Source of the DNA: Kineosporia mesophila
GTDB taxonomy: Bacteria > Actinomycetota > Actinomycetes > Actinomycetales > Kineosporiaceae
Direction: 5' to 3'
Assembly (NCBI RefSeq): GCF_021129235.1
Contig: NZ_JAJOMA010000002.1
Span: forward strand, 248,001-312,000
DNA length: 64,000 nt
The translations under genes and the position numbers were made by a program. Numbering within the stretch: position 1 is the stretch's first letter; every line of letters begins with the position of its first letter. Under the pieces are notes generated by a model. It made no database searches. It saw only the letters and a program-made list of their open reading frames with translations, and was not told where the DNA came from. Positions 32,512-46,442 of this stretch are shown in pieces.

Positions 32512-33231
32512 TCAGCTGGCGGAGCCCCAGTAGCTGCCGTACTTCAGGGCCAGTTCCTCGGCTTGAGCCGTGGTGAGGAGGCGGGGGGAGTGGCCGGAGG
32601 TGAGGAGGGTGAGTTTGCAGGCCTCCTCCAGTTCCACGGCGGCGTTCATGGCGGCGGACAGGGTGGACTGGGCCACCACTGATCCGTGATTGGCCAGCAG
32701 GGCCGCCCGGAAGGGGAGGTCCAGGGCCTCCAGTTCCTCGGCCTGGGCGATGTCACCGGGCGGGGCGTAACCGATGAGGGGGGTCTGGCCCACCCGCATC
32801 ACGAAGTACGGGGTGATCGGGGCGACGGCGCTGGATTCGGACCAGGGGGTGAGGCAGGCGGCCGCTACGGCGTTCACGCTGTGCAGGTGCACCACCGCGC
32901 CGGCATCGGGGGTGCGGCGGTAGAAGGCCCGGTGCAGGGTGAACTCCTTGGACGGCTTCGGGCCCGCCAGATGTTTTCCGGACAGGTCCAGCACAGCCAG
33001 GCGTTCGGGGTCGAGCGCGCCCATCGACTCGTTCGTCGGGGTGAGCAGCATGCGGTCACCGAGGCGCACGCTGATGTTGCCCGAGGTGCCCGGGCTCAGG
33101 CCGAGTTCGACCAGCCGGCGGCCGGTCTCGACCAATTCGGCCCGGGCCGCGGCTTCGTCCGGGGCGGTCGTCCGGTCGGCGGCTGTCGTCTCGTCCGGTG
33201 CCGTTGTTCCTTCTGGCGAAACACTGCTCAT
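32512..33231 (-). CDS. otnC: Class II aldolase/adducin-family decarboxylase (OtnC-like)
   Basis: 239 residues from ATG 33231, whose start overlaps the otnK stop by 4 nt. The class II aldolase fold is shown by LGLSPGTSGNISVRLGDRML, the sugar-phosphate site LTPTNESMG, and the zinc ligands in VVHLHSVNAVAA and LLANHGSV. By homology and pairing with a DUF1537 kinase it should be 3-oxo-tetronate-4-phosphate decarboxylase, giving dihydroxyacetone phosphate and CO2. The N-terminus is a Thr/Asp/Glu-rich extension (~30 residues). Last gene of the otnK-otnC operon. A fuculose- or ribulose-phosphate aldolase role is less likely given the kinase. Confidence 0.85.
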   Translation of the reverse strand: MSSVSPEGTTAPDETTAADRTTAPDEAAARAELVETGRRLVELGLSPGTSGNISVRLGDRMLLTPTNESMGALDPERLAVLDLSGKHLAGPKPSKEFTLHRAFYRRTPDAGAVVHLHSVNAVAAACLTPWSESSAVAPITPYFVMRVGQTPLIGYAPPGDIAQAEELEALDLPFRAALLANHGSVVAQSTLSAAMNAAVELEEACKLTLLTSGHSPRLLTTAQAEELALKYGSYWGSAS

Positions 33232-34520
33232 GACAGCACCGTCCAGGCCCCGCTCATCAGATCCTCGTCCCCGAAATTGCCCGACTTCAACAGCAGATTC
33301 ATCACCCGCCCGCGCGAGTCGCCCTGGGCCCAGGTGACTCCCGCGGCGACCGGCTGGCCGATCACGAGTTCTCGTACGTTCAGGGCCGAGACCACGGCCC
33401 CGGAGGTCTCGCCGCCGGCCACGATCATCTGGCGGCACCCGGCGTCGGCGAACTCCGACGCCAGGCGGGACAGGGCCTGCTCGACCAGGTCCGAGGCCGG
33501 GACCTCGCCCGCTGCCGCAGGTTGCACGTCCGACAGTTCCCCGACCGCGTAGACGAGCACCGGCTTCTCGCTGTCCTGCTGCCATTCCCGCACGGCCCAG
33601 GTGCGCAGCCCGGCCACGGCACCCTCGAAATCCGCGCGCAGCGCGGCGATGTCGAGTCGGCGGTGCGGCATCAGCGCCTGGGCGTGGGCGATCTGGCCCC
33701 GGGTGGCCGCCGACGCACTGCCGGCGAGCACCGCCTTGGGTCCGCCGTGGGCGGACAGCCGGACGGGCGGGGCCCCCGGACCACTGAGACCGAGCGCCAG
33801 GCCGGAACCACCGGTGATCAGCGGAAGGTCGGCGGTCGCGGCGGCGATGGTGACCAGATCATCCTCGGACTGGGCGTCCACGACCACGGCGACCACTTCG
33901 TCCCCCCTTCGCAGGGACTCCGATCGCAGCGACTCTGATCGCAAAGACTCTGATCGCAAAGACTCCAGAGCCTCCCGCAGGCCGCCCGACCGCACCGTCC
34001 CCAGACCGACCTGCACGACCGACGCCGTGCTCTGCGCGGCGAGAAGCCGGGGCACGTCCGAATCGGTCATCGGGGTGAGCGGGTGGTGGCGCATAGGGCT
34101 CTCACCCAGGGGCGTCCCGTGCACGTACAGCTGCCCGTCGACGACCGTGCGGCCGGCTGCGGGGAACGAGGGCACCACGACGGTGAGCGACGTGCCCAGA
34201 TCCGAGGCCAGGGCGTCGAGGATCGGCCCGATGTTGCCGGCCGGCGTGGAGTCGAACGTCGAGCAGTACTTGTCGTAGATACGCGTGGCACCCATCCGGC
34301 GCAGTGCGCGCAGCGCGGTACGGCTGGCCGCCACGGCTGCCGACGGTTCGATGGTGCGGGTCTTGAGAGCGATGACGACCGCGTCGGCCTGTTCGGGCAG
34401 AACGGTCAGCCGCTCGTGGCTGGGTACGCCGATCGACACCACGGTGCGGAAACCGCGCGCGACCAGCGCCATCGCCAGGTCGGTCGCGCCGGTGAAGTCA
34501 TCGGCCAGGGCGCCGAGCAC
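33228..34520 (-). CDS. otnK: Four-carbon acid-sugar kinase, DUF1537 (OtnK-like)
   Basis: 430 residues. The N-terminal DUF1537 domain opens with ALADDFTGATDLAMAL, and FRTVVSIG and YDKYCSTFDSTPAGNIGPI bind the acid-sugar. The C-terminal nucleotide domain has IVAGGETSGAVVSALNV and GVTWAQGDSRGRVMNLLLKS. Proteins of this group phosphorylate 3-oxo-tetronate at O4 with ATP, upstream of OtnC. An in-frame triple repeat LRSES (about residues 187-201) lies between the domains. Divergent from the dehydrogenase-permease-regulator genes. Exact substrate (erythronate- or threonate-derived) is inferred. Confidence 0.88.
   Translation of the reverse strand: MLGALADDFTGATDLAMALVARGFRTVVSIGVPSHERLTVLPEQADAVVIALKTRTIEPSAAVAASRTALRALRRMGATRIYDKYCSTFDSTPAGNIGPILDALASDLGTSLTVVVPSFPAAGRTVVDGQLYVHGTPLGESPMRHHPLTPMTDSDVPRLLAAQSTASVVQVGLGTVRSGGLREALESLRSESLRSESLRSESLRRGDEVVAVVVDAQSEDDLVTIAAATADLPLITGGSGLALGLSGPGAPPVRLSAHGGPKAVLAGSASAATRGQIAHAQALMPHRRLDIAALRADFEGAVAGLRTWAVREWQQDSEKPVLVYAVGELSDVQPAAAGEVPASDLVEQALSRLASEFADAGCRQMIVAGGETSGAVVSALNVRELVIGQPVAAGVTWAQGDSRGRVMNLLLKSGNFGDEDLMSGAWTVLS
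33916..33960 (-). repeat. Three 15-bp in-frame repeats in otnK
   Basis: Three adjacent copies of GACTCTGATCGCAAA (first copy with two changes; plus strand), encoding LRSES-type pentapeptides in a loop of the kinase. Confidence 0.9.
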
Positions 34521-34665: not shown

Positions 34666-36021
34666 ATGAACCTCGGGTTGCTGCTGTCCCAGCACGAACC
34701 GGCTGTCGTCCGCTATGCCCTCTCCGGAGCAGGCGGCGGCTTCGGTCGCACCCTTCTGGCCCAGACCCTTCTCATCGACGCCCTGCGCCCCTCGCTGCTG
34801 TGCGACGTCGACGTGGAGAAGGTGCACGCGCTGTGCGTCGAGCTCGGCTACGACGACCTGGCGATCTGCCGGACCGCCGACGAGGTCCGGGGCGCCACGG
34901 CCGGGACCGTCATCGTGCCCAGCGCCGACCTCCTCGACCCCGACCGGTACGACGTGCTCGTCGAGGGCACCGGCAGCCCGGCCCACGGTTACCGGATGGC
35001 CCGCGCCGCCCTGCTGGCCGGCCGTCACGTCGCGATGGTCAGCAAGGAGGTGGACTCGGTCACCGGCGTCGAGCTGGCCCGGGTCGCCGCCGAGAACGGC
35101 GTGGTCTACACCCCTGCGGACGGCGACCAGCCCGCGAACCTGCTGGCCCTGGTCAGCTGGGTCCGCACGCTGGGCCTGGAGATCGTGGCGGTCGGCAAGT
35201 CCGGTGAGTACGACGTGGTGCTGGACGGTGACGAGATCCGTTACCTCGACATCACGATCCCGGCGGGCGAACTGCCCCGATTGATGACGCTCGGGGTCAG
35301 CCCCGGCGAAACGCTGGCACGGCGCGCGGAGGCGGTGAAAACGCTCAAACTGCGGGCTGCGGCTGACCCCTGCGAGATGGCCGTCGTCACCACGCACGGC
35401 GGTTTCGTCCCCGACACCGAGTCGATGCACTACCCGCTGGCCCGGATCAGTGAGCTGGCCGACATCTACTCGCTGCGGGAGGACGGCGGCATCCTCGCGA
35501 AGAGCGGTGTGGTGGACGTCTTCACGGTGCTGAGGAGGCCCGACGAGGCGAGCTTCGGCGGTGGCGTCTTCGCGATCGTGCGCACCGGCGACCCGGAGAC
35601 CTGGAAGCTGCTCGAGGGCAAGGGTCACGTGGTCAGCAAGAGCGGCAAGTACGCCTGCCTGTACCTGCCGTACCACGTGATGGGCGTGGAGACGCCGGTC
35701 TCGCTGCTCGCGGCGGTCCGGCTGGGGATCGGCTCGGGGGTGGCCGCACCACGCCAGAACGCGGTGATGGCGGGGCGGGCGCGTACCGGCCTGCCGAAGG
35801 GCACCGTGCTGCACATGGGTGGCCATCACCACGAGATCGACGGCGTGGAGCCAGTTCTCCTGCCCACGACCGAGGCTGCGCCGAACCCGGCGCCGTTCTA
35901 CCTCGCCGCGCACGCCACCCTGGCGCGGGACGTGGAGGCCGGCGAGCTCATCACGTTCGAGGACCTGGCCGACGCGGACGCCGACCTGGTCGCCGCCTGG
36001 ACCCGGGGCCTGCGCGCATGA
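34666..36021 (+). CDS. NAD(P)-dependent dehydrogenase with SAF domain (homoserine-dehydrogenase-like)
   Basis: 451 residues from ATG 34666 with TTAGGA upstream. The Rossmann motif ALSGAGGGFGRTLLAQ is at the N-terminus. The middle region resembles homoserine-dehydrogenase-like enzymes (VAMVSKEVDSVTG, YTPADGDQPANLLALV). The C-terminal ~90 residues look like an SAF domain (LARDVEAGELITFEDL). In this operon it probably oxidises a hydroxy-acid to the 3-oxo-tetronate used by OtnK, a job done in described pathways by a different dehydrogenase family. The stop overlaps the GntP ATG by 4 nt. Substrate is inferred only from context. Confidence 0.75.
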   Translation: MNLGLLLSQHEPAVVRYALSGAGGGFGRTLLAQTLLIDALRPSLLCDVDVEKVHALCVELGYDDLAICRTADEVRGATAGTVIVPSADLLDPDRYDVLVEGTGSPAHGYRMARAALLAGRHVAMVSKEVDSVTGVELARVAAENGVVYTPADGDQPANLLALVSWVRTLGLEIVAVGKSGEYDVVLDGDEIRYLDITIPAGELPRLMTLGVSPGETLARRAEAVKTLKLRAAADPCEMAVVTTHGGFVPDTESMHYPLARISELADIYSLREDGGILAKSGVVDVFTVLRRPDEASFGGGVFAIVRTGDPETWKLLEGKGHVVSKSGKYACLYLPYHVMGVETPVSLLAAVRLGIGSGVAAPRQNAVMAGRARTGLPKGTVLHMGGHHHEIDGVEPVLLPTTEAAPNPAPFYLAAHATLARDVEAGELITFEDLADADADLVAAWTRGLRA

Positions 36022-37370
36022 GTTCCGAGATCGTCTCCCTGCTCTGGGCGCTCGCGGCCGTCGTCGTACTGATCCTGATGATCACGCGGGCGAAACTGAA
36101 CCCCTTCCTCGCCCTGTCGATCACCGCGATCGCGCTCGGTCTGGTCAACGGCCTCACCCCGGGCGAGGTGATCGACGCGTTCAAGGACGGTGTCGGCGCC
36201 ATCCTCGGCGGTACCGCCCCGACCATCGGCCTGGGCGTGATCCTCGGCAGCCTGCTGCTCGGCTCCGGCGGTGCGGACAAGATCGTCGACTCGTTCCTCG
36301 GTCGGCGTCCGGTCGCCTGGATCCCGTCGCTGATCTGCGTCGCGGCCGTGATCATCGGTCTGCCGCACCTGTTCGACGTCAGCTTCGTGATGCTCGCGCC
36401 GCTGGTCTACACCGTGGCCCGGCGCCGCAACGTGCACCTGTTGTGGGTCGGCCTGCCGCTGGCCTCCGGCCTCTACGTGTCGCACGGCCTGCTGCCCCCG
36501 CACCCGTCACCGACCGCCGCGGTCAGCGCCTACGGTGCCAACACCGGTCTGACCATCGCCTACGGCCTGATCATCGCCGTGCCCACGGCCATCGTCTGCG
36601 GCCCGCTGTTCACCCGGTTCGCCCGGCGCTGGTTCGGTCCGGCGCCAGACCTGGACGGTGGCCCGGCCCCGGTCACCGACGTGGAACCGGAACGGCCGGG
36701 TCGGCCGGTCTCCCTGGCCCTGAGCCTGATCTCGGTGCTGATGCCGCCGGTGCTCATGCTCATCGGCACGATCGGCACGGCGAACACCGCCGAGGGCACC
36801 GCCCCCTACAACGTGTTCGAGGCGTTCAACGACTCGATCATCTCGCTGCTGGTGGCCGTGGTCTTCGCGTTCTTCGCCCTGGGCCGGCGCAGTGGTTTCT
36901 CCGCCGGTCAGCTGCAGAAGATGTCGGGCAAGGGCCTGGCCGCCGTCGGCCCGATCATCCTGATCCTGGGTGCGGGCGGTGCGCTGAAGCAGATGTTCAC
37001 GGCCACCGGGGTGGACGCGATCATCGCCGACCACGCCGGCAGCTGGTCGATCCCGGCGGTGGTGCTGGCCTGGGTCGTCGCCGCGCTGCTGCGCATCTGC
37101 CTGGGCTCGGCCACGGTCGCCACCACGGCCGCCACCGGCATCGTGGCACCGCTGCTGGCCGCCGACCCGACCCTGTCGCCGGAGCTGCTGGTGCTGGCCA
37201 CAGCCTCCGGATCGGTCATGCTCTCGCACGTCAACGACTCCGGGTTCTGGCTCTTCAAGGAGTACTACCAGCTCAGTGTGAAGCAGACGTTCCGTACCTG
37301 GACGCTGATGCTCAGCATCCAGTCGCTGATCGGTCTGGCCGGTGTGGTGGTACTCAGCGCGGTGATCTGA
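36018..37370 (+). CDS. GntP-family acid-sugar permease
   Basis: 450 residues with about 12-14 membrane spans. The opening LLWALAAVVVLILMI, the glycine-rich GLGVILGSLLLGSGGADKIV and LPHLFDVSFVMLAPLVYTVA are typical of GntP, as is GLYVSHGLLPPHPSPTAAVS. The C-terminal half has SGSVMLSHVNDSGFWLFKEY. The family takes up gluconate and related acids by proton symport. Coupled to the dehydrogenase ahead; DeoR follows 16 bp later. The likely cargo is a four-carbon acid such as erythronate or threonate. Confidence 0.93.
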   Translation: MSSEIVSLLWALAAVVVLILMITRAKLNPFLALSITAIALGLVNGLTPGEVIDAFKDGVGAILGGTAPTIGLGVILGSLLLGSGGADKIVDSFLGRRPVAWIPSLICVAAVIIGLPHLFDVSFVMLAPLVYTVARRRNVHLLWVGLPLASGLYVSHGLLPPHPSPTAAVSAYGANTGLTIAYGLIIAVPTAIVCGPLFTRFARRWFGPAPDLDGGPAPVTDVEPERPGRPVSLALSLISVLMPPVLMLIGTIGTANTAEGTAPYNVFEAFNDSIISLLVAVVFAFFALGRRSGFSAGQLQKMSGKGLAAVGPIILILGAGGALKQMFTATGVDAIIADHAGSWSIPAVVLAWVVAALLRICLGSATVATTAATGIVAPLLAADPTLSPELLVLATASGSVMLSHVNDSGFWLFKEYYQLSVKQTFRTWTLMLSIQSLIGLAGVVVLSAVI

Positions 37371-37386
37371 TGGACTGGGCGACAAC

Positions 37387-38190
37387 ATGCCCGAGGAACT
37401 CATCGAAACCCCGCTGATCCCCGACCAGCGCCGCGAGCTGCTGCTGCGGCACCTCCAGCGCGAGCGCGTGCTGTCGGTGCACCAGCTCACCGACCTGCTC
37501 GAGGTGTCGCACATGACCGTGCGCCGCGACATCGCGACCCTCGAGCGGGAGGGCCGGGTCGTGCCGGTGCCCGGCGGTGTCCGCATCGCCGGGGCCACCC
37601 GGCATCTGCAGGCCGAGGCCTCGCGTCACGACAAGGCCATGGTCGAGCCCGCGGGCAAGGCGGCCATGGCCGCCCGGGCCGCCGCCGAGGTGCTCACCGA
37701 CCGGATGACCGTCTACCTGGACGCCGGCACCACGCTCGCCCAGCTCGTGCCGCACCTCGTGCAGCTGAGTGGGATGACCGTCGTCACCAACGATTTCGCC
37801 GTTGTCGACGAGCTGCTCGCGTCCCGGGCCGATGTCGAGGTGATTCACGTCGGGGGGGCGGTCGACCGGCAGAACCGTTCCAGTGTGGGTGTTCTGGCCA
37901 CCGCGATCCTCGAGCGGATCGCCCTCGACGTGGCCTTCATCTCCAGCAGCTCGTGGGACCTGGGGCGCGGCGTCACCACGCCCTACCCGGACAAGGTCGC
38001 CGTCAAGCAGGCCGCCATGTCCAGCGCGACCGAATCGGTACTTGTGGCAGGGAGTTCCAAGTACGGGCGGTTCGGTATGTACCGGGTCTGTGAGCTGCCG
38101 CAGCTGTCGCTGGTGGTCACGGACTCCGGTCTGGACCCGGCCGATGCCCAGGCCGTTCGCGAGGCGGGGGTGAACCTGGTGCAGGCCTGA
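37387..38190 (+). CDS. DeoR/GlpR-family regulator of the acid-sugar locus
   Basis: 267 residues from ATG 37387. The winged helix (about 10-70) has LLRHLQRERVLSVHQLTDLL and VSHMTVRRDIATLEREG. The sugar-phosphate sensing domain contains YLDAGTTLAQLVPHL and VTNDFAVVDELLAS. SKYGRFGMYRV is the usual late motif. These are generally repressors released by a phosphorylated intermediate, here plausibly 3-oxo-tetronate-4-phosphate. Third gene of its operon, and may act at the inverted repeat at 34537. Confidence 0.92.
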   Translation: MPEELIETPLIPDQRRELLLRHLQRERVLSVHQLTDLLEVSHMTVRRDIATLEREGRVVPVPGGVRIAGATRHLQAEASRHDKAMVEPAGKAAMAARAAAEVLTDRMTVYLDAGTTLAQLVPHLVQLSGMTVVTNDFAVVDELLASRADVEVIHVGGAVDRQNRSSVGVLATAILERIALDVAFISSSSWDLGRGVTTPYPDKVAVKQAAMSSATESVLVAGSSKYGRFGMYRVCELPQLSLVVTDSGLDPADAQAVREAGVNLVQA

Positions 38191-38223
38191 AGGTTCGGGG
38201 CACCGGACGGCGCCCCGGACCTT
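38190..38223. terminator. Bidirectional stem-loop between deoR and the M23 gene
   Basis: 12-bp arms (38190-38201 and 38212-38223, one G-U pair), the first overlapping the DeoR stop codon. It separates two convergent genes. Confidence 0.65.
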
Positions 38224-38232
38224 CAGGGATGA

Positions 38233-39648
38233 TCAGGCGAGGTACAGCACCCCCTGGCCCTCATGCCCCAGGTAGGCCTGCCAGCCGGAGGAGATGGCTC
38301 CCTGGTCGGCGAAGTAGGTGCCGGTGTTGGTGCGCACGGTGAGTTCGCCGCTGGTCTTGAGCACGAACATGTCGTCCAGGCCGTCGCCGTCCCAGTCGGC
38401 GAAGTACAGCCGGCCCTGACCGGCGTCACCGAGGTAGTTCTCCCAGCCCGAGGACTTGATGCCCTGGTCGGAGAAGTGCTCCCCGGTGTTGGTGCGGATG
38501 TCGAGGTCGCCGTTCTGCTTGAGCACGAACATGTCGTCGCGCCCGTCACCGTTCCAGTCGGCGAACGAGATCCGGCCCTGGCCCTCGTGACCGAGGTAGG
38601 CCTCCCAGCCGGAGGAGACGGCTCCCTGGTCGGCGAAGTAGGTGCCGGTGTTGGTGCGCACGGTGAGTTCGCCGCTGGTCTTCAGGACGAACATGTCGTC
38701 GAGGCCGTCGCCGTTCCAGTCGGCGAAGTAGAGCCGGCCCTGGCCCTCGTGGCCCAGGTAGGACTGCCAGCCGGAGGACTTGATGCCCTGGTCGGAGAAG
38801 TGCTCCCCGGTGTTGGTGCGGATGTCCAGGTCACCGGTCGGTTTGAGGACGAACATGTCCTTGCGGCCGTCGCCGTCCCAGTCGGCGAACGAGATCCGGC
38901 CCATGTCCTCGTGCCCCAGGTAGTTCTCCCAGCCGGAGGAGTAGGTGCCCTGGTCGGCGAAGTAGGAACCGTTGTTGACCCGGGCGTTCAGGTCGCCGTT
39001 GGTCTTGAGCACCATCAGGTCGGTCTTCGCGTCGCCGGAGAAGCTGGCCCGCTGCGGTCCGCAGCCGTTCTTACTCTCCAGGTTGCGCCACTCCTTGCCG
39101 ACGCCCGGGCCGTAGGTCTTACCGTTCCAGGTGATCGCGACCCGCTCGGCGTTCTCGGTGCCCCAGGTGAAGACGCCGTCGTCGTTGGCGTCGTAGCCCT
39201 GCTCGAAGTGCAGGTGCGGCACACCGTTCGAGGTCGGGCCGGTGTGCCCGATCCGCCCGATCGTCTCGCCCTGTTTCACCGTGTCGCCGATCGAGACGGA
39301 CCGCGACTGCATGTGGATATAGGTGGTGAAGTTTCTTCCACCGTGGTCAATCTGGACCATGTTGCCAGCATTGTCGTGGAACTTGGACTGCACCACCGTG
39401 CCGTCGGCCGGGGCGACGATCCGGGAGCCCTCGGTGTCGTCCTGAGGCTCGGCGACGATGTCGACCGCGGGGGCATGGGTGTCGTCGTAGGTGTTGACCC
39501 GCCACTTGGTGCCGCAGGGGAATGGCATCTGGTAGTCGGGTGTCGCCGCCTGGGCCGGTACGGAGGTGGCGACCAGGGCGCCGGCGGCGATCAGGCCCGC
39601 GGTCAGCGTGGTGACGCCGGTGCGGATCCGGGAACGTCTCGTGGACAA
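38233..39648 (-). CDS. Secreted M23 (LytM-type) peptidase with five-repeat FG-GAP/propeller domain
   Basis: 471 residues from TTG 39648, which has AAAGGA six bases upstream. A Sec signal peptide spans about 1-35, ending VPAQAA. The M23 peptidase head (~40-170) shows THAPAVDIVA, the PHLHFEQ zinc motif, and IVAPADGTVVQSKF, so it probably cleaves peptidoglycan cross-links. From ~195 five repeats of 54 residues follow, each with a calcium-type DWNGDGLDD loop and a YFADQG/HFSDQG strand, and a final GVLYLA strand that could close a five-bladed propeller. The repeats are nearly identical to those of the next gene. The propeller may bind wall glycans or calcium. Confidence 0.9.
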   Translation of the reverse strand: MSTRRSRIRTGVTTLTAGLIAAGALVATSVPAQAATPDYQMPFPCGTKWRVNTYDDTHAPAVDIVAEPQDDTEGSRIVAPADGTVVQSKFHDNAGNMVQIDHGGRNFTTYIHMQSRSVSIGDTVKQGETIGRIGHTGPTSNGVPHLHFEQGYDANDDGVFTWGTENAERVAITWNGKTYGPGVGKEWRNLESKNGCGPQRASFSGDAKTDLMVLKTNGDLNARVNNGSYFADQGTYSSGWENYLGHEDMGRISFADWDGDGRKDMFVLKPTGDLDIRTNTGEHFSDQGIKSSGWQSYLGHEGQGRLYFADWNGDGLDDMFVLKTSGELTVRTNTGTYFADQGAVSSGWEAYLGHEGQGRISFADWNGDGRDDMFVLKQNGDLDIRTNTGEHFSDQGIKSSGWENYLGDAGQGRLYFADWDGDGLDDMFVLKTSGELTVRTNTGTYFADQGAISSGWQAYLGHEGQGVLYLA

Positions 39649-39678
39649 AGGATTTCCTTTCAAAGGGGGAGAAGACGA

Positions 39679-41145
39679 TCAGGACAGGTAGAGGACGCCT
39701 TGGCCCTCGTGGCCCAGATAGGCCTGCCAGCCGGAGGAAATGGTGCCCTGGTCGGCGAAATACGTTCCGGTGTTGGTGCGCACGGTCAGTTCACCGCTGG
39801 TCTTCAGCACGAACATGTCGTCCAGGCCGTCCCCGTCCCAGTCGGCGAAGTAGAGCCGGCCCTGCCCGGCGTCGCCCAGGTAGGACTGCCAGCCGGAGGA
39901 TTTGATGCCCTGGTCGGAGAAGTGCTCGCCGGTGTTGGTGCGGATGTCGAGATCGCCGGTGGGTTTGAGGACGAACATGTCGTCGAGTCCGTCTCCGTTC
40001 CAGTCGGCGAACGAGATCCGGCCCATGCCCTCGTGGCCCAGGTAGTTCTCCCAGCCGGAGGATTTGATGCCCTGGTCGGAGAAGTGAGTGCCGGTGTTGG
40101 TGCGGATGTCCAGGTCGCCGGTGGGTTTGAGGACGAACATGTCGTCGAGTCCGTCTCCGTTCCAGTCGGCGAACGAGATCCGGCCCATGCCCTCGTGGCC
40201 CAGGTAGTTCTCCCAGCCCGACGAGATGGTGCCCTGGTCGGCGAAGTAGGTGCCGTTGTTGGTGCGGACGGTGAGTTCGCCGTTGGTCTTCAGCACGAAC
40301 ATGTCCTTGCGGCCGTCGCCGTTCCAGTCGGCGAAGTAGAGCCGCCCCTGGCCCTCGTGGCCCAGGTAGGCCTGCCAGCCGGAGGAATAGGTGCCCTGGT
40401 CGGCGAAGTAGGAGCCGTTGTTGACCCGGGCGTTCAGCTCTCCGTTGGTCTTGAGTACCAGCAGGTCGGTCTTCGCGTCGCCGGAGAACGAGGCCGCGGG
40501 CCGGTCCTGGGCGGCGTCCCAGACCGCGTCGACGATGCGCCCGGCGTCGGCCGCCTGGGCCTGATAGCGGTCCGGGTAGGCCGAAACCTGCACCGCCTGG
40601 CAGACTTCCCCGACCGGGGCGCTCTGCCAGGAGTTGTTCGGGTACTTGTCCTCCATCTTGTTCAGGAACGCGGTGGTCGCCCAGGTGGCGTTCGTGCGGT
40701 TCGCCACGCTGCCCCACGACGCCCGCTGCTGGAACAGGCCCAGGCTGTCGTGGTCGGTCTCCTCGGTGTAGTTGTGCAGCGTCGACTCGACGATCGCCGT
40801 GGTCACGGCGATCACTCCGGCCTGTCGGGAAAGACCTCGATCACGAACGGTTTTCACGATCATTCGGGCGCAGGACGCCTGGTAGGCGGTGATTCCGCCG
40901 GACAGGCCGCCGGTCAGCCGGCCGTCCAGCGAGTTCGCCGCCGTGGTGTCGGCAGACTTCGTCCCGTCCGGGTCGCAGGCGGTGGTGGAGATCGCGGCGA
41001 TGCCCGCAGGGGTGTCGACCGGTCCCACCACGGGGACGTCGGCAGCCAGCGCGGAGCCGGCCGGGCCGGCCACGAGAAGGCAGGCAGCCAGGGCGAAAGT
41101 CATGGTGCGGTGAGCGGGCAAACGGGTGCCCACGGTTCTCGACAA
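39679..41145 (-). CDS. Secreted lysozyme-like head with five-repeat FG-GAP/propeller domain
   Basis: 488 residues from TTG 41145 (TGGAGA is five bases ahead). Signal peptide ~1-35 with MTFALAACLLVAGPAGSALA. The head (~45-215) contains ACDPDGTKSAD, AGVIAVTTAIVESTLHNYTE, DHDSLGLFQQRASWGSV and VCQAVQVSAYPDRYQAQA, the pattern of actinobacterial lytic-transglycosylase-like exported proteins. The C-terminal five 54-residue repeats and closing GVLYLS match those of the neighbour downstream, only 30 bp away. Together they look like an operon of two wall-acting enzymes sharing one binding module. The catalytic Glu is probably in AIVESTLHN, by analogy. Confidence 0.85.
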   Translation of the reverse strand: MSRTVGTRLPAHRTMTFALAACLLVAGPAGSALAADVPVVGPVDTPAGIAAISTTACDPDGTKSADTTAANSLDGRLTGGLSGGITAYQASCARMIVKTVRDRGLSRQAGVIAVTTAIVESTLHNYTEETDHDSLGLFQQRASWGSVANRTNATWATTAFLNKMEDKYPNNSWQSAPVGEVCQAVQVSAYPDRYQAQAADAGRIVDAVWDAAQDRPAASFSGDAKTDLLVLKTNGELNARVNNGSYFADQGTYSSGWQAYLGHEGQGRLYFADWNGDGRKDMFVLKTNGELTVRTNNGTYFADQGTISSGWENYLGHEGMGRISFADWNGDGLDDMFVLKPTGDLDIRTNTGTHFSDQGIKSSGWENYLGHEGMGRISFADWNGDGLDDMFVLKPTGDLDIRTNTGEHFSDQGIKSSGWQSYLGDAGQGRLYFADWDGDGLDDMFVLKTSGELTVRTNTGTYFADQGTISSGWQAYLGHEGQGVLYLS

Positions 41146-41264
41146 AGTGGTCTCCAGGACTGGATGAACGGGAAAAAGGATGTGGTGCAACCAGTCACAG
41201 CCGCCCCCACGGCTTCGAGTGACTCGGTGCGAACCCCCGCCGAAGTTCTATCCCGGCATGGCTC

Positions 41265-41295
41265 AAAAAACAACCATTGCGGTGGTTGTCCTTTT
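41265..41295. terminator. Rho-independent terminator
   Basis: A-run, CAACCA-TTGCGG-TGGTTG stem and CCTTTTT follow one another at 41265-41295. It works on both strands and lies 3' of the TPR-GGDEF gene, ending that transcript before the secreted-enzyme pair. Confidence 0.8.
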
Positions 41296-41367
41296 TCGGC
41301 ACTATGTGAAGCGAGGTCGAGCCGGGGGGCGACGACCCAATCAGCCTTTGGGGGGCTCGTTCACTTG

Positions 41368-42975
41368 CTAGAAGTCTGTGCAGATCCGGTTGCGTCCGGC
41401 CGACTTCGCGGCGTAGAGCTGTGCGTCGGCGCGGGCGAGCAGGGAGGAGGGGGTGTCCTCGAGAACGGCCGTGGCCATTCCTCCGCTCAGCGTGATGATG
41501 CGGCCCGGGGTGATCGGTGTCCACCCGTAGTTCTCGACGGACGCCCGCAGCGACTCGGTGATCCGCAGGGCCTCGTCGCGGTGGTCGGTACTGAGGATGA
41601 GCAGGAGTTCCTCACCACCCAGCCGGGCCGCGAAGGAACCCGTGACCGCAACCGGGGCGACCGCGTCCTCCAGCAGCCGGGCCACCGTGCGCAGCACCTC
41701 GTCACCGACCTCGTGCGAGAACGTGTCGTTGACGGACTTGAAGTGATCGAGGTCGAGCAGGGCCACGCTGAGCACGCCGGACGTGACCATCTGGTTGCGC
41801 AGCAGCCCGCTCAGGCGTTCCTCGACGTAGAGCCGGTTGCGCAGGCCGGTGAGCGGGTCGCGGCGGGCCTCCTCGCGGTAGCGCGCCGCCTCCTCGCGGG
41901 CCGTGACCGTCTCGAAAATGGTCTGGCGGGCGCGGGCCTGGGCCTCCCGCTGCTGGGAAAGCAGTTCCTGGTCGGCCTCGTAGAACTCCTTGTGAGTCTC
42001 GAACGCCGCCCGATAGTCGCCCAGCGCGGCCTGCACCTCGGCCTCCTCCTTGAGGATACGGGCCTTGGTACGGCCGTAGGCCTCCGAGCTGACCAGGTCA
42101 CGGGCCCGGCCCAGGGTCTTCGCGGCGAGCTCGGCCTCGCCCAGACCTCGCTGGGCCACAGCCAGGGTGAGCAGGTACTCGGGCAGCGCGTCGCCGGCCT
42201 TCACCTCCAGCTGCTCGGCCGCGTCGACGGCCTGCTGCGCCGTCTCGGCGGCCGGGCCCGGTTCGTCGCGCAGCAGGTGGATGCGCGCCACCGTGTCCAG
42301 GGCGTCGGCGTTCAGCGGGCGCCCGTAGTGCCGGCCCAGAGACATCAGAAGCCGGGCCTGTTCCAGAGCGGTGTCTCCGTCCCCGGACTCCAGCGTGCTG
42401 TAGGCCCGGTTGTTCACCACCAGCATGTGCATGCGCCCGTCGCCGGTGGCCAGTTCCTCGGCCCGGGCGTACCAGATCATCGAGTCCTCGTGGTCGCCGA
42501 GCTCGTCCAGCAGGTCGGCGACCTTGATGAGCACCCGGGTGCGCAACCGGCGCGAGACCCCGTCGGTGAACGCGCCGACCGCGTCCATCACGTGCTCCAG
42601 CGCCGTCGGCCGGTCGCCGAGGTCGGTGTAGATGCGGGCCGTCAGCCAGCACGCCCGCACGGTGTGCTCCGCGCCCAGCGGTGCGTGCGCGTCGCGGGTC
42701 TGGTTGACGATCGCCGCGGCGGCGGCCGGCTCCCCGTCCCGCTGGTAGGCCTCGGCCTGCCAGAGCAGCGCGCTCACGGTGGCGTCGTGATCACCGAGTT
42801 CCTCGGCCCGTTCCTGGAGGCCGCGGGCCCGGTCCAGGGCGCGGGCCGGGTCCAGCCCGACGGCGTCGTCCAGGGCCGCGAGCTCCTCGGCCAGCCGGGC
42901 GCGTTCCTCACCGAGGCTGAGCCCGGCAGCAGGGGGTACGGGCCGGCCGTCACGGGGCTGGTTCACCTCGATCAC
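41368..42975 (-). CDS. TPR-repeat GGDEF protein (probable diguanylate cyclase)
   Basis: 535 residues from GTG 42975. The first ~340 residues are tetratricopeptide-like helical pairs (for example LLWQAEAYQRDGEPAAAAAI and LTLAVAQRGLGEAELAAKTL). A short coiled coil (EAQARARQTIFETVTAREEA) leads to the GGDEF domain (~365-535) starting DPLTGLRNRLYVEERL. The active-site loop is RLGGEELLLIL, i.e. GGEEL rather than GGDEF/GGEEF; the metal-binding Asp is in LLDLDHFKSVND. It is therefore likely, but not certain, to make cyclic di-GMP. No membrane spans, so the TPR part is the probable sensor. Confidence 0.9.
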   Translation of the reverse strand: MIEVNQPRDGRPVPPAAGLSLGEERARLAEELAALDDAVGLDPARALDRARGLQERAEELGDHDATVSALLWQAEAYQRDGEPAAAAAIVNQTRDAHAPLGAEHTVRACWLTARIYTDLGDRPTALEHVMDAVGAFTDGVSRRLRTRVLIKVADLLDELGDHEDSMIWYARAEELATGDGRMHMLVVNNRAYSTLESGDGDTALEQARLLMSLGRHYGRPLNADALDTVARIHLLRDEPGPAAETAQQAVDAAEQLEVKAGDALPEYLLTLAVAQRGLGEAELAAKTLGRARDLVSSEAYGRTKARILKEEAEVQAALGDYRAAFETHKEFYEADQELLSQQREAQARARQTIFETVTAREEAARYREEARRDPLTGLRNRLYVEERLSGLLRNQMVTSGVLSVALLDLDHFKSVNDTFSHEVGDEVLRTVARLLEDAVAPVAVTGSFAARLGGEELLLILSTDHRDEALRITESLRASVENYGWTPITPGRIITLSGGMATAVLEDTPSSLLARADAQLYAAKSAGRNRICTDF

Positions 42976-43254
42976 ACCCCGCGCCTTTCTGACGGTCCGT
43001 TCATCGGGACATCGGTCCCTGGAATGCCGTTCTTGACCGGTCCGGTCCGTTCTCGACCCCACCGGCGGCGGCGGGCCCGAGGGTTGTCACCCGGCCGGGA
43101 GCAGCGCACGAGGGATTGTCCAGACTGTCCCGCACCTTCGGGCAGCATCGGCACGGCACCGGGCCATTATGGCCACTGCCACCCCGAATGCACGGTGCGT
43201 GAGGTTTTCCGCGTGTCCGCCGGTCACCCCGGACCGGACCGGTTCAGGCCGGAT

Positions 43255-44508
43255 TCAGGTCTCGGTGGTCGCGATGTGGCCGCGCTGCTGCTGCCAGGTG
43301 CCGGCGGCCACCCCGGCGATCATCGCCACCGCCAGGCCCAGAGCGGTCAGGGTCGGGCTCAGCGGCAGCAGGCTGATCCCGATCACGACGGGGAGCGTCG
43401 CGACCGGCCACGGCCAGGCCGCGCTCCAGCGCCCGGCCGAGCCGGCCATCACCAGGGCGACACCGGCGACGAACAGCCCCACCCCCACGCAGAGCGCCGC
43501 CCGGCCGCCGGGGGAGAGGTCCCCGACCGGGTGCAGCACGTACTCCTCCACACCGACACCGACACTGGCCAGGCCGAGGAACAGCGGCAGATGGCCGTAG
43601 ACGTACCGGTCGTGGGTGGCGGAGGCCCGGTTGTCGTTCTTCTGCAGGATGCGGTGCTTGCTCGCCGCCCCGCCCAGGTCGAAGTAGGTCCACCACAGGG
43701 CCGCGGTGATCACGAAACCGATTGCGGCGGTGGTGAACGAGGCCAGGCGCCAGTCGGTGTCGTGCAGGCCGACCACCACGGAGGCGATGGACTCACCGAG
43801 CACGAGCATGGCGAACAGGCCGAACCGGTCGGGCAGGTGCTGCTCGTGCAGCGGGATGCGGTTGCCGAAACGGGTCGCCAGCAGCGGGGCGGTGGCCTCG
43901 ATCAGCAGGCCGGCGGCCCACAGGGCGTAGCGGGCGGGGCCGGGGACGGCCAGCGACACCGACCACAGCACGGCGCTGACGGCGGTCGCTCCGAGGTAGA
44001 GGTCCAGGGTGCGGCGGGCGTCCGGGACGTGGTGGTGGGCCCGGGCGTAGAGCGCCATCAGCAGGACCTGCGAGCCGAGATAGCCCGCCGCGAAGTAGAC
44101 CGAGCCCGAGGTGGTGGCGCTCGAGGAGGCTGCGGCCATCACCGCGACCGCGAACGTCTGGCCCAGTTTCGCCAGCCGGTAGGGCACGTCGTTGGTGTCG
44201 AAGCGGTTGGAGTAGAGCGTGGTCGTGACCCACGACCACCAGACCACGGTGAACAGCCCGGCGAAGACCCCGGCCCCGTGCCAGCTCAGGTCGTGCGCGA
44301 AGGCACTGGTGAGCTCGGCGACGACCAGCACGTAGGCGAGGTCGAAGAACAGCTCCAGGCGGGACGCGGACCGGTCCTCACCGGTGCGCAGCCGGGGCGG
44401 CTGGATCAGCGCATCGGCCTGACGGGCACCACCTTGCCCGTCATTGTCCTGCTGGTCTGGGTCCTGCTGATTGCTCTGTTCCTGGTTGTGCTCCGGCTCC
44501 GCCGGCAT
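43255..44508 (-). CDS. Low-temperature-requirement A (LtrA) family membrane protein
   Basis: 417 residues from ATG 44508 with AGGGAAGG ahead. About 12 hydrophobic spans. The family markers are ASRLELFFDLAYVLVVAELT near residue 55, FGLFAMLVLGESIASVVVGL, and ALWWTYFDLGGAAS. LtrA was named for cold growth in Listeria; its biochemical function is unknown. The first ~50 residues are a Gln/Asp/Glu-rich soluble tail. The gene overlaps the small membrane-protein frame upstream by 68 bp. Confidence 0.9.
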   Translation of the reverse strand: MPAEPEHNQEQSNQQDPDQQDNDGQGGARQADALIQPPRLRTGEDRSASRLELFFDLAYVLVVAELTSAFAHDLSWHGAGVFAGLFTVVWWSWVTTTLYSNRFDTNDVPYRLAKLGQTFAVAVMAAASSSATTSGSVYFAAGYLGSQVLLMALYARAHHHVPDARRTLDLYLGATAVSAVLWSVSLAVPGPARYALWAAGLLIEATAPLLATRFGNRIPLHEQHLPDRFGLFAMLVLGESIASVVVGLHDTDWRLASFTTAAIGFVITAALWWTYFDLGGAASKHRILQKNDNRASATHDRYVYGHLPLFLGLASVGVGVEEYVLHPVGDLSPGGRAALCVGVGLFVAGVALVMAGSAGRWSAAWPWPVATLPVVIGISLLPLSPTLTALGLAVAMIAGVAAGTWQQQRGHIATTET

Positions 44509-44866
44509 GTCCGACCTTCCCTGGTGCGCCGTCGTCCCCGCCCCCGGACGGGGCCCTGGGAACCTGGCCCATCCTCGGGCCGCGCCACCGGGGCCGCCTT
44601 TCGACACGAATCAGGCGGTCGCGCCGCGGGCACCTCGCCGGACCATCAGCGCGGCCGGCTCCCGGGCCCGCCGGGCCTCGCGGCGTGCCGGGGCGGGTGA
44701 GCCGGGCGTACAGGTGCACCGGCACGCCGGGGCGGTCGGGACGGCGCGCCGGCGGGGTCGAGCTGCCGGAGGTGAAGACGCGCACGAACACGAAGACCAC
44801 GAACCCCAGGAACAGCGCCGCCACCAGGGGCAGCAGTACCGTCATCACGATCAGTGGGGTGGACAT
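44441..44866 (-). CDS. Small membrane protein with one N-terminal span
   Basis: 141 codons from ATG 44866 with GAGAGC upstream. The N-terminus MSTPLIVMTVLLPLVAALFL and the next 12 residues form one strong membrane span. The remainder is Pro/Arg/Gly-rich and looks disordered. Its 3' end overlaps the ltrA start by 68 bp in another frame, so either the two are coupled or the tail is spurious. No family recognised. Confidence 0.45.
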   Translation of the reverse strand: MSTPLIVMTVLLPLVAALFLGFVVFVFVRVFTSGSSTPPARRPDRPGVPVHLYARLTRPGTPRGPAGPGAGRADGPARCPRRDRLIRVERRPRWRGPRMGQVPRAPSGGGDDGAPGKVGHAGGAGAQPGTEQSAGPRPAGQ

Positions 44867-44915: not shown

Positions 44916-46442
44916 TCACCCGGGCAGGTGCCAGACCTGGTTCAGGTTGCTGCCGCTGCAGTCCCACATGATCAGTGGGTCACCGGCCGCCGGCTCGTTG
45001 GTCGTCGTGGTCAGGCAGCGCCCCGACCACGGGTTGCGCACCTCGTCGCCGACCGCCTCGAAGATCTGGGCCCGGGTGCCGTTGCACTCCCACAGCTGCA
45101 CCGTGAGACCGTTCTGCACCTCGTTGGCGCCCAGGTCGAGACACCGGTTGCCGGTCTTCAGCCCGCGCTCGGCGGTGTAGTCCCACTGCTGCAGCTCGGA
45201 CCCGTCGCACGGCTGGATCGTGGGCAGGTCACCGTTGGCCAGGCTGCCGGGCGCGGCCAGGCAGTTGCCGTTGGGCCCGGTCAGCGTCCGCACCGGCTGG
45301 TCGGTCTCGGCCGGGGCTTCGGAGGCCGGTGTTTCGGAGGTGGCGGGCGTGACGTCGGCCGGGCCGGCCGAGCTGGCCGGGCTGCCCGAGGCCTTGTCGT
45401 CCGCGTCGGCGCCGACCCCACTCACGAGCCAGGTCCCGATCAGCGCGACGCCCAGGACGACCGCCAGGAGCCCGGCGCCGACCAGCAGCGGACGGCGGCT
45501 GCGGGCGGACGGGGTGGCCGGGGCGGAGTAGGCCCGGGTGGCCCCGAGCGCCGGGGGCACCGTCGCCGGCGAGGTCCCCGGCGCGGGAGTCGCTCCCCTC
45601 CCCTTGAGTATCTGCTGGTAGAGCTGGTTCTCGATCAGTCCCGTCTCCGGCCGGCACCGCAGCACGATCTCCTCGGCCCCGGGACGCGCCGAGGGGTCGG
45701 GGTTGCTGCAGTCGCGGATCAGGGCGGCCAGGTCGTCGGGCACCCCGGTGACGTCGACCTCGCCGCTCATGCTGCGCCGGCTGACGGCGAAACCGCTGCC
45801 CACGCCGTACGGGGCCCGGCCCGTGGCCGCCTTCGCGATCGTCGCAGCCAGCGCGAAAACATCCGCCGCCGGGCCGATCTCGTGGCCGAGCAGGGCCTCG
45901 GGAGCGGTGTACCCGGGGGTGCCGACCGTCATCCCGGTCTGGGTGAGCCCTTCCTGGTCCTCACCCCGGGCGATCCCGAAGTCGATCAGCCGCGGACCGG
46001 TCACCGAGAGAATGATGTTCTGCGGCTTCAGGTCGCGGTGGCAGATGCCGTGCGCGTGGATGTCGACCAGAGCCTCGGCGAGCGCCGCGAACAGGCCCCG
46101 GGTGACGTCGGCGTCGAGTTGGCCCTGGTCGCGGATGGCCGCGGCCAGCGTCGGGCCGGGCACGTACTCCGTGGCCATCCAGTAGGGCGTGGTGGTCACG
46201 TTGTGGTCGATCAGCGCGGCGACGAAGGCGTTACGCACCGTCCGGAGGATCTCCACCTCCCGCCGGAACCGGTTCAGGACGTCCGGGTTCTCCTCGAACT
46301 GAGTGTTGATCACCTTCACCGCCACCGGCCGGCCACCCGGTGTGCTCCCGAGGTAGACGCGCCCCATGCCTCCCTGGCCCAGCCGCCCGGTGATGCGGTA
46401 CCGGCCGATCGACGACGGATCGGAGGCTTCCAACGGCTGCAC
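44916..46442 (-). CDS. Membrane Ser/Thr protein kinase with extracellular ricin-type lectin
   Basis: 508 residues from GTG 46442. The kinase domain (about 12-270) is complete: GRLGQGGMGRVYLG, the VAVKVIN lysine, CHRDLKPQNIIL catalytic loop, LIDFGIARGED metal motif and GTPGYTAPEAL. A Pro/Ala linker leads to a membrane span near 325-345 (LLVGAGLLAVVLGVALIGTW). Outside, ~380-508 is a ricin-B beta-trefoil with GNCLAAPG, QQWDYT, RCLDLGANEVQNG and LNQVWHLPG (QxW motifs). The usual PASTA domains are absent. It would let a carbohydrate or wall fragment control phosphorylation; substrates are unknown. Confidence 0.95.
   Translation of the reverse strand: MQPLEASDPSSIGRYRITGRLGQGGMGRVYLGSTPGGRPVAVKVINTQFEENPDVLNRFRREVEILRTVRNAFVAALIDHNVTTTPYWMATEYVPGPTLAAAIRDQGQLDADVTRGLFAALAEALVDIHAHGICHRDLKPQNIILSVTGPRLIDFGIARGEDQEGLTQTGMTVGTPGYTAPEALLGHEIGPAADVFALAATIAKAATGRAPYGVGSGFAVSRRSMSGEVDVTGVPDDLAALIRDCSNPDPSARPGAEEIVLRCRPETGLIENQLYQQILKGRGATPAPGTSPATVPPALGATRAYSAPATPSARSRRPLLVGAGLLAVVLGVALIGTWLVSGVGADADDKASGSPASSAGPADVTPATSETPASEAPAETDQPVRTLTGPNGNCLAAPGSLANGDLPTIQPCDGSELQQWDYTAERGLKTGNRCLDLGANEVQNGLTVQLWECNGTRAQIFEAVGDEVRNPWSGRCLTTTTNEPAAGDPLIMWDCSGSNLNQVWHLPG

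Follow-up and report, generated by a model that had tools for sequence, protein, structure and literature searches.

Two adjacent genes of Kineosporia mesophila, lying in a 64,000-nucleotide stretch of contig NZ_JAJOMA010000002.1 (assembly GCF_021129235.1, positions 248,001 to 312,000; hereafter the window, whose numbering is used throughout), encode a GH184-like muramidase head (gene A) and an M23 peptidase head (gene B), each followed by a closely similar module of five repeats. We consider that the pair is probably a small lectin-aimed lytic cassette for one wall glycopolymer. One transcript would give two secreted enzymes, of which the muramidase may cut the N-acetylmuramic acid-N-acetylglucosamine (MurNAc-GlcNAc) backbone and the peptidase the peptide bridges, while the common VCBS lectin propeller would anchor both enzymes on the same polymer and so bring both cuts into the same wall. 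The pair would thereby belong to a wider actinobacterial locus type, with two or three tandem wall enzymes whose tails are matched within the locus. All parts belong to known families; their arrangement, with wall enzymes in tandem and propeller lectins matched within each locus, did not turn up in searches of the open-access literature.

The shared five-repeat module

The modules of genes A and B are 84% identical over 271 amino acids (695/810 at the DNA level), much more than chance would give, whereas the heads are not related to each other. The modules differ by 57.5 synonymous and 60.5 nonsynonymous changes (pS 0.31, pN 0.10). FG-GAP_3 (PF13517) matches five stretches in each protein (91.5 and 92.6 bits against a curated Pfam cut-off of 26.9), and SSGW, the GW sugar-pocket motif, is found in 10 of 10 repeats. 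Reading of the blade comparison matrix revealed two repeat types in different order (1-A-B-A-B in the M23 protein, 1-B-A-A-B in the muramidase); repeat 2 of gene B is closest to repeat 4 of gene A (146/162), compared with 129/162 to repeat 2 of gene A.

Judged by profile and fold matches, the module is a lectin-related propeller of the VCBS/FG-GAP kind. A structure model of moderate confidence (predicted local distance difference test, pLDDT, 65.2; predicted template modelling score, pTM, 0.62) has propellers as its best fold matches. The closest solved fold is UmbA4, which was solved bound to its wall polymer, and the UmbA lectins are the nearest relatives by both profile and fold. An integrin-like adhesion module was set aside because the top 28 rows of the fold search were all lectins; tachylectin-2 does not appear in that list, an absence that carries no weight. 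The initial annotation had described nearly identical five-repeat domains, consistent with a five-bladed propeller, with a DxNxDG calcium-like loop in every repeat. The shared module of 54-residue repeats and the propeller hold, although "very similar" describes the domains better than "nearly identical", and the five blades of a presumably closed ring derive from repeat counts and not from a high-confidence model. The loop (DxNxDG or DxDxDG) is present in repeats 2-5 of both proteins (8/10 repeats in total), and repeat 1 reads SFSGDA instead.

Head domains and alternative tails

Gene B matches Peptidase_M23 (PF01551, E-value = 6.7e-23, 81.1 bits against a Pfam cut-off of 28.7). The HxH of the metal site is present (H145, H147) and the first pair is H58-x4-D63, while the usual M23 spacing at this site is HxxxD; this first motif falls outside the Pfam match because the match begins at profile position 12. 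For the head of gene A no Pfam match was obtained, and phmmer search of PDB matched GH184 muramidases (8b2h_A, 1.1e-14; 8b2e_A, 1.3e-7). E120 and D131 of gene A align with the conserved Glu and Asp, are nearly invariant in one alignment (A4) and have invariant counterparts in another (A2). They probably correspond to the residues named Glu41 and Asp66 in KsGH184 in the paper that defined the family (PMC10394673).

The main argument for wall binding by the propeller is that it occupies the place of wall-binding domains. Relatives of the M23 head carry other tails, including a different FG-GAP tail (a congener, L340, and Nonomuraea, L150), PG_binding_1 (L336) and a below-cut-off SH3-like tail (L337), and a relative of the NlpC head family discussed below carries PG_binding_1 as well (L211). 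Similarly, muramidase-head relatives were found with other repeat tails (G476, 43%; G559, 51%; G298, 46%). In the last of these, from Streptomyces (L335:4103-5857), no second wall enzyme was tagged adjacent to the gene with the muramidase-like head.

The M23 peptidase and lysozyme-like protein 30 base pairs (bp) apart had been placed at the right coordinates in the initial annotation, and the Pfam and PDB matches agree with it; the family membership of the heads backs the two complementary wall activities that it had proposed. The suggested targeting role of the common module gains support from the close M23-head relative in L336, which has PG_binding_1 at the same place.

Tandem wall enzymes with matching tails in other genomes

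Genes A and B are the only carriers of the module in their genome (2 matches), and all 10 PF13517 matches fall within them. At E ≤0.001 it was detected in 7/58 relatives' genomes (own included; the other six matches are weak, the best being 3.7e-8) and was absent from all five congeners; at 1e-12 it was found in 3/396 genomes of the phylum, own included. Close head relatives at 1e-24 are likewise few (2/316 genomes for gene A and 3/316 for gene B, own included); weaker head relatives are common (51/58 related genomes for each head, own included).

In four Streptomyces plasmids (NBC_01296, NBC_00161, NBC_00998 and NBC_00536), NlpC/P60-type and Rpf-type enzymes stand next to each other with the same five-repeat tail. 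Relatives of the NlpC head are present in 237/392 Streptomyces genomes at 1e-25; from the better matches, 20 regions were chosen manually, in part for a second enzyme that could already be seen, and in 10 of them tandem enzymes share a tail. The wall-locus set consists of these tandem regions plus the window, S. globosus, S. clavuligerus pSCL4 (a CHAP, Rpf and M23 cassette), G740 and two NBC plasmids; 15 of its loci were measured, and G559, cut by a contig end, is the sixteenth. The independent lineages are fewer than the loci because two are NBC relatives and two (S. globosus and G745) are orthologous. A further region, G811 (L189), resembles another NlpC and Rpf set with broken frames and was excluded from the counts.

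The cassettes hold two or three wall enzymes (NlpC/P60, Rpf, M23, CHAP or muramidase), and their tails usually match inside a locus and differ strongly between loci. The best within-locus tail identity is 60-100% in the 15 wall loci, and the nearest tail in the set belongs to a neighbour for 32/39 tails. By Pfam, the heads in the set include NLPC_P60, Transglycosylas, Peptidase_M23, CHAP, Rv2525c_GlyHyd-like, SASA and Exo_endo_phos, and scripted motif matches are the basis of some of the NlpC and muramidase labels. The tails are not all VCBS by Pfam (G703 has another repeat), and in G740 as well as in G745 there are two cassettes, which differ in their tails. Plasmid location was dropped as an argument for competition, since a plasmid-only collection was the source of the plasmid cases, and contigs carrying other cassettes reach 10 megabases.

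Concerted evolution of the modules in a Streptomyces plasmid family

Between NBC_01296 and NBC_00536, the heads are identical at 621/687 and 335/378 positions and the orthologous modules at 714/828 and 725/828, while the two modules inside one plasmid share 827 (NBC_01296), 800 (NBC_00161), 814 (NBC_00998) and 778 (NBC_00536) of 828 positions. In this family, modules are thus 94-99.9% identical in DNA within a plasmid, compared with 86-88% for orthologues in the most distant member. Both genes have the same order in NBC_01296 and NBC_00536; therefore the pair predates the split, after which sequence was exchanged between the copies. The modules of the NBC plasmid family evolve in concert, and recombination between the copies maintains their match. 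The three sister plasmids give a mixed result; in NBC_00998, one module is about equally close to NBC_01296 (815) and to its own neighbour (814). Synonymous differences between sister plasmids are 0.048-0.116 in the modules versus 0-0.022 in the heads (0.010 versus 0.006 for the pair NBC_00998 and NBC_00069). Furthermore, the Rpf gene is gone from NBC_00069 (L199, compared with L151) and the next gene stands at an unchanged distance of 348 bp (347/349 bases identical), as exchange between the two modules would leave. In the first cassette of G740 the modules are 97-100% identical, and the module of an NlpC relative in G517 is 79% identical.

Genes for trypsin-like and SGNH proteins with similar five-repeat tails also stand close together in Streptomyces and Kitasatospora and were used as a control. 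Within-locus identity differed between 15 wall and 9 control loci (P-value = 0.0025), and with orthologues collapsed (13 versus 5 loci) the P-value was 0.067; the contrast is only suggestive, and the comparison is uneven in that orthologues are present in the set for the control loci but not for most wall cassettes. The trypsin-like proteins with five-repeat tails (L009-L020, L147 and L149) resemble UmbA, whose catalytic triad is described as incomplete (PMC11062931), and the serine of GDSGGP is replaced in all eight of the trypsin-like heads checked within L009-L020. At one Kitasatospora locus (L019:2223-5189), the tail of an SGNH head and that of a secreted head of unknown kind are 100% identical over 269 amino acids.

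Alternative explanations and possible targets

Several observations weigh against a lectin-aimed cassette with a recombination-matched tail. The structure model reaches a pLDDT of only 65 and a TM of about 0.55 to its best fold match, 10 of the 20 picked regions have no shared tail (some are cut by contig ends), and 7/39 tails match better elsewhere (two each in S. globosus, the second cassette of G745 and the second cassette of G740, and one in the third gene of G504). The two modules of NBC_00161 resemble those of NBC_01296 (807-809) at least as much as they resemble one another (800/828). In the orthologous NlpC and M23 cassettes of S. globosus and G745 (its second cassette), the tails follow the head, with 84-87% identity across and 60-64% within. 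Most wall cassettes have no orthologue in the set, so recent duplication and concerted evolution give the same picture there; the window pair, also without orthologue, fits duplication and exchange alike. Finally, no immunity gene of the sort that might accompany an attack system was recognised next to the pair.

This last observation would be expected if the proteins were self-wall enzymes, with a propeller binding the producer's own wall polymer during remodelling in growth or sporulation and modules varying as strain polymers vary, a serious rival explanation that we nevertheless regard as less likely than not. Head relatives in 51/58 related genomes for each head are what general wall enzymes would show, and Rpf and NlpC/P60 heads are typical of enzymes acting on the own wall. 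However, the lack of the module in all five congeners and the few close head relatives fit an accessory trait better than a core one. It is less probable still that the tail match is a by-product of recombination between neighbouring repeats, the tail having no common ligand or being a mere spacer. Most changes between the sister-plasmid modules are synonymous, the pattern expected from exchange in which new binding is not selected, and NBC_00069 has lost one unit between module copies; yet the sugar-pocket motifs are kept, and 18/21 of the trypsin-like and SGNH tails, which also lie close together, find their best match in another locus, with the reservation that the contrast is only suggestive (P-value = 0.067 when collapsed).

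That the proteins are UmbA-like adaptors of an umbrella toxin particle is very improbable, even though the UmbA lectins are nearest to the module. UmbA proteins likewise carry C-terminal propeller lectins, many of them five-bladed, and UmbA4 binds a teichuronic-acid-like wall polymer, as far as described in PMC11062931 and PMC13274773. In those accounts, however, UmbA has an inactive trypsin-like head and is part of a toxin particle, whereas the window pair has wall-enzyme heads in tandem; neither protein has the UmbB-binding trypsin-like domain by Pfam, and membership was rejected on this ground. PF03752 (the ALF repeat of UmbC) has no match in the genome, although the control search also matched in 0/14 genomes.

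For a lectin-aimed lytic cassette, neighbouring bacteria are the slightly favoured target and the own wall a less probable one. Two points favour competitors: the patchy occurrence of the pair, and the relatedness of its lectin to the lectins that umbrella toxins direct at other Streptomyces. More tentatively, actinobacteria may possess an as yet unnamed class of such cassettes, each with two or three wall enzymes cutting different bonds and one lectin aimed at the glycopolymer of particular competitors. The lectin pool would be common with the umbrella toxins, with enzymes as the delivered part, and recombination between modules would retune the whole set at once and preserve a common aim as the lectins diverge from strain to strain. 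If so, the diversified propeller lectins of soil actinobacteria have a second use, aiming wall-enzyme sets besides toxin particles, and matched lectins and wall lysins are available in these genomes as a natural library. The cassettes also illustrate clearly how a binding domain can stay alike across adjoining enzymes with unrelated heads, and they make the ligand of VCBS propellers on wall enzymes testable, since a single ligand is expected for every enzyme of a cassette.

Relation to known enzymes and lectins

The head of gene A is similar to the GH184 muramidases (8b2h, 8b2e) and has their conserved Glu and Asp; as far as PMC10394673 describes them, bacterial members lack a wall-binding domain and fungal ones have an SH3-like domain, whereas gene A has a propeller. 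Gene B resembles M23 peptidases of the lysostaphin/LytM kind in joining an M23 head to a C-terminal binding domain, and differs from them in having a propeller instead of SH3b or PG_binding_1 and in the spacing of H58-x4-D63. An Asp-rich loop, a GW motif and predicted secretion are shared with the VCBS supercluster of tachylectin-like propellers and actinolectins (PMC8023676), whose bacterial tachylectin-like members are described there as often bearing catalytic domains. Unlike tachylectins, to which that account gives no such loop, the window modules have 54-residue repeats with an Asp-rich loop, and Tachylectin (PF14517) gave no Pfam match in either window protein at E up to 1. Additionally, the C-terminal part of the fusidic acid esterase FusH (NCBIfam NF000157) matches the module (1.3e-48) and its head is an esterase; the scores of 165.9 and 162.4 bits do not reach the equivalog cut-off of 999.

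Gene coordinates and neighbouring features

The TTG starts of genes A and B are each preceded by a ribosome-binding-like site, and the coordinates in Table 1 assume these starts; for gene B an earlier TTG at 39663 is a possible alternative. The two genes probably lie on one transcript.

Table 1. Features of the gene pair in the window
Feature	Position	Strand	Remarks
Gene A, first of the pair: putatively secreted GH184-like muramidase head and five-repeat module	39679..41145	-	488 amino acids from TTG 41145
Gene A, predicted signal peptide and GH184-like head, conserved E120/D131	40495..41145	-	signal peptide judged by eye
Gene A, module: five 54-residue repeats (162 bp each) and short last strand LYLS	39679..40494	-	
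Intergenic gap, 30 bp, GAAAGGA site ahead of TTG	39649..39678	-	
Gene B: putatively secreted M23 peptidase head and five-repeat module	38233..39648	-	471 amino acids from TTG 39648
Gene B, predicted signal peptide and M23 head, H112, H145 and H147 present	39049..39648	-	signal peptide judged by eye
Gene B, module: five 54-residue repeats and last strand LYLA	38233..39048	-	

The guanine-cytosine (GC) content of the two genes is 0.667 and 0.670 and that of the window 0.696, a difference too small to argue for recent transfer. A phage origin was rejected: a module-based scan of viral contigs, which reaches close relatives only, gave 8 pattern matches and none was confirmed. Gene A's head family recurs widely in phage tape-measure and lysin proteins, but among the 384 phage records with a match, none has one place covering 80% of the protein. 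No riboswitch was matched by Rfam in positions 36000-44000 of the window at E ≤0.1, nor in 17 loci at gathering scores.

A TPR and GGDEF protein of the diguanylate cyclase kind is encoded immediately upstream of the pair, on the same strand (41368-43062, -). At 3.7 kilobases from the pair lies a gene for a protein kinase that carries a ricin-type lectin domain at its C-terminus (44916-46442, -; PF00069, PF00652), perhaps a sugar-sensing membrane kinase. A 2145-codon open frame (38263-44700, +) runs antisense to the pair and its neighbours and is probably a high-GC artefact. Further away, a sugar-acid-kinase-like protein (33228-34520, -) contains a short in-frame LRSES repeat.
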